Below are positions 715-4,999 of a stretch of 64,000 nucleotides of DNA, piece after piece. The stretch is from Halosimplex halophilum (GTDB taxonomy: Archaea > Halobacteriota > Halobacteria > Halobacteriales > Haloarculaceae). A program made the position numbers and the translations under genes. Where the stretch lies: assembly GCF_004698125.1 (NCBI RefSeq), contig NZ_ML214298.1:951972-1015971 (forward strand), written 5' to 3'. Numbering within the stretch: position 1 is the stretch's first letter; each line of letters opens with the position of its first letter. The notes under the pieces were generated by a model that did no database searches, had not been told where the DNA came from, and saw only the letters and a program-made list of their open reading frames with translations.

Positions 715-1809
715 ATGGCGCTCAGACAGCCGCCGCTCGCGGAATCGCACGAGGCGAGCGGCGCGACGCTCACCGAGTTCGGGGGCTGGGAGATGCCCGT
801 CGAGTTCGACTCCATCCGGGCGGAACACGAGGCGGTCCGCGAGTCGGTCGGGCGGTTCGACGTGTCGCACATGGGCCAGCTGGCCGTCACCGGGCCGGAC
901 GCCGGCCGGCTCACCAACCGGCTGGTGACGAACGACGTGTCCGACCTCGACCCGGGCGAGGCGAACTACGCCGCGATCACCGACGACCGCGGGGTGATGC
1001 TCGACGACACCGTCGTCTCCCGTCCGCCCGCGGACTGGTCGGTCGAGGCCGACTACCTCGTCGTTCCCAACGCCGGCCACGACGCCGAGATGGCCGACCG
1101 CTGGGTCGACCACCGCGACGCCTGGGAACTCGACGCGACCGTCGAGAACCGCACGGAGTCGCTGGCGATGGTCGCGCTCCAGGGCCCCGACTCTCGGGAT
1201 CTGCTCGCGGCCGAGACGGACGCCGACCTGGGGGAACTGGGGCGATTCGAGACGACCGTCGGGTCGGTCGCGGGCGTCGAGACGTTGGTCTCCCGCACGG
1301 GCTACACCGGCGAACCCGGCTACGAACTGATCTACCCCTGGGACGAGGCCGAGACGGTCTGGTCGGCCCTGGACTGTCAGCGCTGCGGGCTCGGCGCCCG
1401 CGACACGCTCCGACTGGAGATGGGCTTTCTCCTCTCGGGGCAGGACTTCGACCCCGAGGACAACCCCCGCAACCCCTACGAGGCGGGCGTCGGGTTCGCG
1501 GTCGACCTCGACAGCGAGTTCGTCGGCCGCGACGCGCTGGAGGGGGTCGACGTGGAGGGCGTCGAGGAGAAACTCCGGGGGATCGAACTCGTCGACCGCG
1601 GCGTCCCCCGGGAGGGCTATCCCGTCGAGTCAGCCGACGGCGAGCGCCTGGGGGAGATCACGAGCGGGACGATGAGCCCGACGCTCGGTCGGGGGATCGG
1701 CCTGGCGTACCTCCCGAGCGAGGTCGGCCTCGACGAGCCCGTCCGCGTCTCGGTGCGGGGCGAACCGAAGAAAGCACGTACCACCGCGACCCCATTCCTC
1801 GACAGATGA
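715..1809 (+). CDS. gcvT: Glycine cleavage system T protein (aminomethyltransferase)
   Basis: This 364-aa protein transfers the aminomethyl carbon from lipoyl-GcvH to a folate carrier, releasing ammonia. The family motifs are visible: GGWEMPVEF near residue 23, DVSHMG at 49-54, an LDD pair near 96-98 where the catalytic Asp of GcvT falls, GYTGEPGYE mid-protein, and the C-terminal [20 protein letters not shown] block. The ATG at 715 was chosen because the family begins right there; upstream codons look random. The stop overlaps the gcvH start (ATGA). The gcvP subunits are not in the window. Confidence 0.95.
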
Positions 1810-2189
1810 GCTTCGACGTTCCCGACGACCTGCGTTACCTCGACTCCCACGAGTGGGCGCGGGTCGACGACGGCAGCGCGCGCATCGGCATCTCCGAGTT
1901 CGCCCAGGACGAGCTGGGCGACGTGGTCTTCGTCGACCTCCCGGCCGAGGGCGAAGAAGTCGCCGCCGGCGAGGACTTCGGCGTCGTCGAGTCGATCAAG
2001 GCCGTCTCCGACATCTACGCCCCCGTCTCCGGCACCGTCACGGCCGTCAACGACGACCTGGCCGACCGACCGGAACTCGTCAACGAGGCTCCCTACGGCG
2101 ACGGCTGGCTGATCGAGGTCGACCTCGACGACGAGTCGGAGCTCGACGACCTGCTGTCGGCGGACGAGTACCGCGACCAGATCGCCTGA
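1806..2189 (+). CDS. gcvH: Glycine cleavage system H protein (lipoyl carrier)
   Basis: The 127-aa lipoyl-domain protein shuttles the aminomethyl intermediate between the P, T and L proteins. The lipoylated lysine is Lys65 in [16 protein letters not shown], the standard GcvH context, and the N-terminal HEW ([10 protein letters not shown]) and C-terminal DGWLIEVD are also typical. The ATG overlaps the gcvT stop, so the two are translationally coupled. A T-rich stretch (TGTTTTCTCT) follows about 20 nt after the stop and could terminate transcription. Confidence 0.96.
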
Positions 2190-2399: not shown

Positions 2400-2415
2400 T
2401 TTAGGCTCGCCTAAA
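2400..2415. promoter_or_regulatory. DtxR-type iron box, upstream copy
   Basis: TTTAGGCTCGCCTAAA is a palindrome with 7-bp arms and a 2-bp centre. The TTAGG-N4-CCTAA core matches operators of DtxR/IdeR/SirR-family metalloregulators. It lies just upstream of the likely TATA element (CTTAAC near 2426) of the halocyanin gene. Confidence 0.75.
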
Positions 2416-2435: not shown

Positions 2436-2451
2436 TTTAGGTGGGCCTAAA
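2436..2451. promoter_or_regulatory. DtxR-type iron box, start-site copy
   Basis: TTTAGGTGGGCCTAAA repeats the same TTTAGG-N4-CCTAAA pattern 36 bp downstream of the first box. It ends 5 nt before the ATG at 2457, so on a leaderless transcript it would cover the transcription start. The two boxes bracket the TATA region, an arrangement suited to strong metal-dependent repression. Confidence 0.75.
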
Positions 2452-2456
2452 ACACG

Positions 2457-4999
2457 ATGCAACGGCGCAGACGCGAGGTACTGGCGACAGGGGCAGCGCT
2501 CGCGACGCTCGGCGTCGCAGGATGCAACGGGCTGTCGGGCGGCGACGGGACGGACGCGCCGGCCGAAACGTCGAGCGGCGAGGACGGCGACGGTGACGGC
2601 CCGGACAGCACGGCCGAGGGCGGCTCGCCGAGCGACGACGGTTCGGGCGGCTCCGCGTCGGTCGACGCGGCGGTCGCAGCCGAGTGGAACGCCATGCGCG
2701 CCCGGGTATGGGACGCCGCGGCGCTGGGCCGCGCCGGCGAGTTCGCCGCCGGCGCCTCGGTCGCGCAGTCGACGTTCGCGCGCTTCGAGAACGCCGGCGG
2801 CGAGCACGGCGCCCACGAGGCCCTCGAGTCGACCAGCGAGTCGAACTACGAGGCGTTCGAGGCGGCGCTCGGGGACCTCCGGAGCGACGGCCTCGACGCC
2901 GGCGACATCGAGCGCACGCGCGAGACGGCCGCGACGGCGAGCACGCAACTGGCCGAGGCCCAGCGCGCGCTCGTCGGCGAGGCTACCGCGCAGGCCCTCG
3001 CCCTCCAGCTGTTCGGCGCGGCGGCCCTCGACGCCGGCGCGCTCGCCGCGGCGGGCAACTTCGAGGGCGCGGGCGCGACGGCGGAGGCCGTCCTCGCGCG
3101 CTTCGAGGAGGCGGGCGTCCACGGCGCGCTCGAATCCGCGGACGCCGAGTCCTACGAGGCCTTCGAGGGGGCGCTCGAAGCCGCCGCGTCGGCCGCGGAC
3201 GACGGGGACCGGGAGGCGGTCCGCCGGGAGGTCGGGGCGGCCTACGTCGCCGCGGTCGACGGGAGCTACGCGCTGGCGGACGCCGAGGCGGCCGCGGCCG
3301 CAGGCCACATCGCGACGCTGCAGGCCCGCGGGTGGGACGCCGCGGCGCTCGCCGCGACCGGCGGGCCCTCGACCGACTACGCCCACGCAGCCGCGCTGAC
3401 GCTCTACCGCGCCCGGGCGGCCGACGCCGCCTGGCTGGCCGCCCGCGGCGAGACCGACCGCGCCGCGACGGTGGCGAGCGACGTCTTCGCCCACTTCGAG
3501 GGCGCCCGCGCCCACGAGGCCCTGGAGGAGGCCGACGGCGAGGCCTACGAGGGTTCGAGTCGGGGCTGTCCGCGCTCCGGTCGGCCATCGAGGACGGCGA
3601 CTCCGCCGGGATCGACGAGGCCCTCGCGACCGTCGACGGGAACCTCGTCGCCGGGGTCGAGGCGCTCGCCGGCGAACAGGCGCCCCTGCTGGCGGCCGCG
3701 TTCTTCCGCGCCCGGTTCGCGGACGCGCGTGAACTGTACCGGCTGGGGCAGAACAACGTCGCCGCGGGCCTCGCCCGGGGGCTGTTCGAGCGCTTCGAGG
3801 CCGACGAGCTCGGCGTCCACGAGGCCCTGGAGTCGACCGACGAGGACCTCTATCACACCTTCGAGGAGGAGCACCTCTCGGGGCTGATCGACGCCTTCGA
3901 GAACACCGACGACGGGGCGGTCGCCACCCACTACGAGGGCGTCCAGTCCGCGCTGCTGGAGTTCGAGACGGCCGCCGGCTCGACCGCGACCGTCAGCGGC
4001 GCTGAGGCCGCCTATATGGGCGCCCGCGGGTTCGACGCCGGCGCCCTCGACGCGCTCGGGAAGGACAGCCGCGCCGGCGCCGTCGCGCAGGGCGCCTTCG
4101 AGCACTTCGAGGCCGGCGCCGGCGGCTACCACGAGGCGCTCGAAGTCGCCGACGAGTCCGTCTACGAGGCCTTCGAAGACCGGCTGGGGGCGGTCTCCGC
4201 GGCCGCGGGGAACGGCGAGGACGTCTACGCGGCGAGCAAGTCGTTCAACGCCAGGGCCGTCGAATCAGCCTATGCGATCGTCGAGCACGCCGGCGGTTCG
4301 ACCAGCGGCGCCGCCGCGACGGTCCTCCAGGACGCCTTCACCCACTTCGAGACCGCGCGCGTCCACGACATGCTGGAAGGGGCCAGCCGCTCGGCCTACG
4401 AGAGCTTCGAGCGGCAGCTGGACGCATACCTCACCGCGCTCGACGAGGGCGGTGACGTGCGGGCGGCCGCCGACACCTTCGCCGACGCCTCGCTGTACGC
4501 CCAGTTCGCACTCGTCGACGGCGTCGAACAGCTCCCGATAGACCTGCGGGTCCCCGGAGCGAGCGGCGAGAGCGGCGGTGACAGCGGTGGCGGTGAGGGC
4601 GGCGGTAGCGGCGACGGCGGCGGGTCGAACCTGCAGGGCGGCCCCGACGTCGTCGAGGGCGTCCCCGACGACGCCGACCACGTCGTCGACATGACCGCCG
4701 TCGCCTTCGAGCCGGCGGAACTGACCGTCTCGCAGGGCGACACGGTGGCCTGGGCCCACGCCGGCGGCGAACCCCACAGCGTCACCGCCTACGCCGACGG
4801 CGTCCCCGACGGCGCCGAGTACTGGGCCTCCGGCGGCTTCGACTCCGAGGAGGCCGCGGTCTCCGGCTGGGAGGACGGCGAGGGCGCCGTCCGGTCGGGC
4901 CAGTCGTTCGTCCACACCTTCGAGGCGACCGGCACCCACGAGTACTACTGCGTCCCCCACGAGGCCGCCGGGATGGTCGGCTCCGTGACCGTCGAGTAA
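2457..4999 (+). pseudogene. Six-repeat halocyanin lipoprotein (DUF5059-like), one-base frameshift
   Basis: A Tat lipoprotein start (RRRREVLATG, lipobox GVAGC with Cys23) leads into an acidic linker and six repeats of about 30-45 conserved residues with consensus HFE..hEALE..(d)e..YEaFE..L. A Gly/Ser linker and a C-terminal blue-copper domain follow; the ligands are His in GEPHSVTA, Cys in YYCVP, His and Met in HEAAGM. In repeat 3 the frame breaks: the upstream frame reads EAYEGSSRG while the next frame resumes GFESGL at 3551-3553, as if one G were lost from a GGGG run. Restored, the protein would be about 847 aa. Both halves keep coding bias, so this may be a recent mutation, slippage or a sequencing error. 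Two iron boxes precede it. The DUF5059 label is from memory. Confidence 0.8.

Follow-up and report, generated by a model that had tools for sequence, protein, structure and literature searches.

The gene at positions 2457 to 4999 of the stretch of DNA analyzed here encodes a DUF5059 lipoprotein whose reading frame is broken by a single missing base inside the third of its six repeats. This stretch, the window, comprises 64,000 nucleotides (951972-1015971 of contig C2) of the 4.47-Mb, seven-contig genome of Halosimplex halophilum. The frame that opens with the ATG at 2457 closes at a stop ending at 3887, giving 476 amino acids, and another frame is open up to the stop at 4997-4999. A search with hmmscan matched the DUF5059 model (PF16502) in two segments: model positions 1-293 on 2457-3554 (E 7.8e-109, 365.6 bits) and model positions 293-619 on 3545-4996 (E 5.7e-123, 412.3 bits). 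Both parts of the gene are above the gathering score of the family, which is 25 bits, and the homology of the broken copy to DUF5059 is not in doubt. No single open frame of this copy matches the whole model, and the copy of H. pelagicum is in one open frame. Since the two halves of the model meet at approximately 3549-3556, a single base must be missing there. Hence, the match to a single family model is interrupted at just one point by one missing base, which confirms the break reported in a preliminary description of this DNA.

What does the break take away? The part of the gene that precedes it (2457..3551, forward strand, as are the other parts in this paragraph) encodes the signal, repeats 1 and 2, and most of repeat 3, and corresponds to DUF5059 positions 1-293. 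The break itself (3549..3556) lies in repeat 3, between the Tyr-Glu and the Phe-Glu codons. The part that follows (3554..4999) encodes the end of repeat 3, repeats 4-6, a linker, the cupredoxin domain, and the stop. When the two parts are joined with one unknown codon at the break, the reading extends over 847 residues, with zero stops and no second shift, and the divergence is of the coding type on each side, so that the restored protein of 847 amino acids and the otherwise intact flanks proposed earlier both stand. A pattern search retrieves five of the six repeat motifs, and the third straddles the break. Without recoding, the product has 476 amino acids, consisting of the signal, two whole repeats, most of the third, and a wrong-frame tail that runs through the stop (3552..3887). 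It has no copper domain. The break thus removes this domain and half of the repeats.

The extremities of the restored protein are well defined. The N terminus (2457..2525, forward strand) has a twin arginine followed by a motif ending in Cys, MQRRRREVLATGAALATLGVAGC, which we take to be a Tat-type signal with a lipobox; R5, R6, G22, and C23 are invariant in 27 homologues, in agreement with the earlier assignment. The C terminus (4685..4996, forward strand) is a cupredoxin domain of the plastocyanin/azurin type, matching Copper-bind (PF00127) with an E value of 7.6e-17 and 62 bits, against a gathering score of 21.2. Its copper ligands were described as complete, and indeed the codons for His (4775-4777), Cys (4949-4951), His (4958-4960), and Met (4973-4975) are all present on the forward strand, and the ligands are invariant in 27/27 aligned homologues. 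The term "halocyanin," used in the preliminary description, is a loose one: the Pfam plastocyanin/azurin family is matched well over its cutoff, but the NCBIfam halocyanin model (TIGR03102) scores 38.5 bits, under its cutoff of 93.8 (42.7 bits for the H. pelagicum protein). AlphaFold2 models consist of a long array of helices and then the cupredoxin domain, with a mean pLDDT of 87.6 for the intact H. pelagicum protein and of 93.6 for the helical part alone. Among 26 homologues, a Glu-His-Glu-Tyr-Glu set is conserved at a level of at least 95% in five of the six repeats, and repeat 2 keeps only the first Glu. This layout of conserved Glu and His residues looks like that of metal sites, which we regard as putative.

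The gene is preceded by two perfect TTAGG-N4-CCTAA palindromes, as the preliminary description implied when calling it iron boxed. The first, TTTAGGCTCGCCTAAA, lies at 2400..2415 (0 mismatches) and the second, TTTAGGTGGGCCTAAA, at 2436..2451, 36 bases after it. Even allowing up to 2 mismatches, only 0.06 such sites are expected in the window. The genome has 16 sites, two of them at this gene, and the reversed control has 0. We tested 75 homologue loci and removed 17 duplicates and one locus without a start, which left 57 distinct homologues; a box was present in 55 of these, between 260 bases before and 30 bases after the estimated start (L082 and L085 have none). It lies 15-23 bases before the estimated start in 49 of these 55. 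Fifteen homologues have two boxes, mostly 34-37 bases apart, and the 36-base spacing seen at 2400-2451 is kept in most of them. Such paired boxes suggest two regulator dimers on one promoter. Ten proteins near other box sites, chosen by hand, were scanned with Pfam. Five are iron related (two Fe_dep_repress, FecCD, Peripla_BP_2, and NifU), and the other five match NMT1_2, DUF7551/7552, no family, CopD below threshold, and a sugar transferase. The palindrome is therefore shared upstream of iron genes, as in a haloarchaeal DtxR-type iron regulon. Box sites also adjoin the NMT1-like lipoprotein (L231), the DUF7551/DUF7552 protein (L236), and the sugar transferase (L243). Given these motifs, the family appears to belong to the response of haloarchaea to iron starvation. 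Expression data from Haloferax volcanii tie it to iron indirectly: HVO_1228 (DUF5059/hcpE) is reported to be upregulated in an endA CRISPRi strain, along with genes for siderophores and Fe(III) transport (PMC7714728), and to be downregulated in a cas1 fen1 mutant, along with iron genes (PMC9051519). In a term search, the main text on the H. volcanii iron starvation proteome mentioned neither halocyanin nor hcpE nor DUF5059 (PMC11349517).

Within the genus, the gene is present in five of the eight Halosimplex genomes searched, including the one studied here, and its frame is unbroken in the four other carriers (848 amino acids in H. aquaticum, 840 in H. carlsbadense, 828 in H. pelagicum, and 842 in H. 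salinum). In these four congeners, it stays together with the upstream stretch, at the same place behind a gcvH-like gene (1806..2189 in the window, forward strand); we presume that the upstream genes are gcvT and gcvH. No DUF5059 gene was matched in two complete congeners, G003 and G005, and G007, which is 71% complete, matched weakly and at the signal end alone. The distance from gcvH to the next conserved gene is approximately 0.9 kb in G003, versus 3.6 kb in H. halophilum. It is approximately 10 kb in G005, where some other event took place at the locus.

The family is widespread in the order, with PF16502 matches in 96/392 genomes. By a hand count, 80 of the 96 carry a nearly complete gene in a single frame, 9 carry a short form, and 3 show a split of the one-base type (H. 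halophilum, G125, and G339). The remaining ones are split by N (G093) or by contig ends (G319), have a short end piece (G171), or have a weak match under the cutoff (G275). Several apparent splits were discarded since they are gaps and not frame breaks: those at L058/L112 (78 N) and L113 (988 N), and that of G319 at contig ends. The breaks in G125 (L056, near 6572) and G339 (L057, near 4900) are in other places of the gene and in two other genera. The existence of independent breaks of this type suggests that the gene is occasionally lost. The short forms lack approximately positions 235-545 of the model (G394, G152, G355, G226, G147, G016, G282, G293, and G365), which shows that the number of repeats varies. 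Literature searches on DUF5059 found no function. What stands out in this family, widespread among haloarchaea, is an iron box that almost all members share and an unusual architecture.

Which base was lost, and could the cell read across the site? The preliminary description proposed that one G had disappeared from GGGG and suggested comparing the run in close relatives. The codon at the break is GGC in three of the four congeners and GGG in one. Among the 24 of 39 named loci where the pattern located the site, the four congeners included, it is GGC in 13, GCC in 4, GCA in 3, GGG in 2, GGT in 1, and AGC in 1. The Gly codons of the broken gene itself are 74 GGC, 26 GGG, 8 GGT, and 2 GGA. Since the relatives mostly have GGC at this codon, a run of Gs is not conserved there, and the missing base need not be a G; the loss of a G is just one reading. 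This bears on the idea that the full protein is produced by recoding, either by -1 translational frameshifting or by slippage during transcription of the G run. The correct frame would be regained exactly by a -1 step on the Gly codon, and the sequence is conserved on both sides of the break. However, the site reads GGG and then TT, so that the run is only three bases long, without a long homopolymer. Reading the sequence revealed no X XXY YYZ slippery heptamer in frame at the break, and the RNA fold downstream is no better than that of shuffled sequences (z 0.24; 1.14 for the matching stretch of H. pelagicum), which leaves both hallmarks of programmed -1 frameshifting, the heptamer and the downstream structure, absent. 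The run is not common to the relatives, and the four congeners and 80 of the 96 matching genomes carry the gene in one frame: they apparently neither need nor keep a recoding signal. We also rejected the possibility of a shared slippage site, since the other broken DUF5059 copies break elsewhere. Hence, we regard recoding as highly improbable, and the slippage contemplated in the preliminary description finds no support. More generally, a three-base run should not be taken as a slippage site before the codons of the relatives are checked. Alternatively, the truncated lipoprotein of 476 amino acids could be a working short form lacking the copper domain. The repeat number can drop, as illustrated by the 9 genomes with short DUF5059 forms in open frames of 506-555 amino acids. 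But these natural short forms retain the end of DUF5059 (approximately positions 545-619), which is missing from the truncated product, and approximately the last quarter of the latter is wrong-frame sequence. A functional truncated form is therefore extremely improbable.

The two explanations offered earlier that we retain as live options are a mutation and an error, which the sequence alone does not separate when a single site is affected. The reading we lean toward, at slightly better than even confidence, is that this strain of Halosimplex, or its lineage, recently underwent a real one-base loss that knocked out an iron-regulated and dispensable lipoprotein gene. The base would then be truly missing in the cells and the 476-amino-acid product would have lost its function. 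An error of sequencing or assembly confined to one site, with the gene whole and working in the cells, is a serious possibility, if somewhat short of an even chance. There is no other damage in 847 codons, a pattern compatible with both an error and a young mutation; the break falls in repeat 3, where conservation along the protein is highest; the divergence is of the coding type before and after it; both iron boxes are retained; and contig C2 contains one 10-N gap, i.e., it belongs to a scaffolded draft. Against an error, the break is not at a long homopolymer and the contig is not flooded with indels. To assess the latter, we compared contig C2 over its full 1.127 Mb with a 1.2-Mb portion of H. 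pelagicum. In the raw comparison, 13 of 288 gene pairs (107,654 amino acids) were multiframe, which could have indicated an error-ridden assembly, but most of these were open reading frames over-extended into upstream or antisense DNA. They were removed by requiring that the changes on each side concentrate at third codon positions. Among the 240 pairs (88,192 amino acids) that passed this test, two were multiframe: the broken DUF5059 gene and D_655, which visual inspection of the alignment assigned to sequence preceding a start codon. This leaves 1 true in-gene break among the 240 pairs. With the roles of the two genomes exchanged, the test retained 246 of 277 pairs, four of them multiframe: two have clear in-gene single-base breaks in H. 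pelagicum, and two are apparently intergenic. The H. pelagicum breaks are opposite open reading frames at C2:631938-633834 and C2:879543-881046, which are intact in H. halophilum. The rates of 1/240 here and 2/246 in H. pelagicum, whose record is titled complete, are similarly low, and a raw indel-rich assembly is excluded.

The break, if real, is recent. Using five other homologues as outgroups to assign changes to branches, we found 77 synonymous and 97 nonsynonymous changes on the branch of H. halophilum and 92 and 77, respectively, on that of H. pelagicum, a difference that is not significant (Fisher p 0.067). The synonymous/nonsynonymous mix is the same before (36/44) and after (41/53) the break. 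Judging from these counts, the relaxation of selection on the branch of H. halophilum would be slight at most. A search of plasmid records for DNA of the same strain or species gave no match, and a scan of genome contigs, a set that may omit near records, retrieved nothing from this genome. Whether loss or single error, the break itself is ordinary, and the gene family is more interesting than the break.

What could the intact protein do? In our best reading, it is a putative lipoprotein of the cell surface that binds metal and has redox activity as part of the response to iron starvation. Held by its lipid anchor and facing outward, it would consist of a helical array, with up to six Glu/His sites, and a blue-copper domain. 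It would be made under iron shortage, and it may bind, and perhaps redox-handle, iron or copper for uptake. A more specific proposal, which we advance tentatively and consider rather unlikely, builds on the five to six helical units, most of which have the conserved Glu...His-x3-Glu...Tyr-x2-Phe-Glu set. The family could be an unrecognized haloarchaeal iron-acquisition lipoprotein under DtxR-type control across the order, in which extracellular iron would be trapped by the helical units and its redox state shifted by the tethered blue-copper domain, in an EfeO-like arrangement reached independently; the broken copy would then be a natural knock-out.

EfeO, the iron uptake partner of EfeU, combines a cupredoxin with an M75/imelysin-type helical domain. 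The likeness to the DUF5059 protein is one of parts list alone (a cupredoxin, bundles of helices in which His/Glu are conserved, and regulation by iron), and the domain order of EfeO is the reverse. There is no homology by sequence: hhalign found no match (E 0.6 for the repeats against E. coli EfeO). As to the fold of the helical part, Foldseek gave an E value of 2.7 against EfeO 7wgu. The VIA comparison of this part with imelysin 3n8u (Z 9.4, rmsd 2.4, 104 aligned) is below the meaningful level for helical bundles. Peptidase_M75 (PF09375) was matched neither in the two gene parts nor anywhere in the genome, in which no FTR1/EfeU partner was found. The efeU gene of E. coli K-12 MG1655 (L246:1857-2686) is flagged as a pseudogene in its record, another case of a broken iron-uptake gene, here in a laboratory strain. 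Among known folds, the helical part had no Foldseek match with E < 0.001. Its best VIA rows were discarded as general helix bundles, below the meaningful level for bundles; they include 1y4c (Z 13.1, rmsd 2.1, 101 aligned) and the small metal-binding protein 3u8v (Z 12.1, rmsd 2.2, 83 aligned). The nearest PDB sequence match of the repeats is a designed bundle (E 0.0036).

The model of the C-terminal domain is, in contrast, readily placed: it has the fold and the ligands of plastocyanin 2plt (Z 14.9, rmsd 1.1, 91 aligned). Plastocyanin and halocyanin are small blue copper electron carriers, whereas here the domain follows a helical array of approximately 620 residues. The closest known counterparts are HVO_1228/hcpE of Haloferax volcanii, named as DUF5059 in print (PMC7714728), and hcpG of Hfx. 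mediterranei, described as DUF5059 plus a blue copper domain (PMC9240420). Both belong to the same Pfam family over its full length and share the copper domain, the signal, and the iron box. They are described as ordinary genes, whereas the copy of Halosimplex halophilum is broken by one base.
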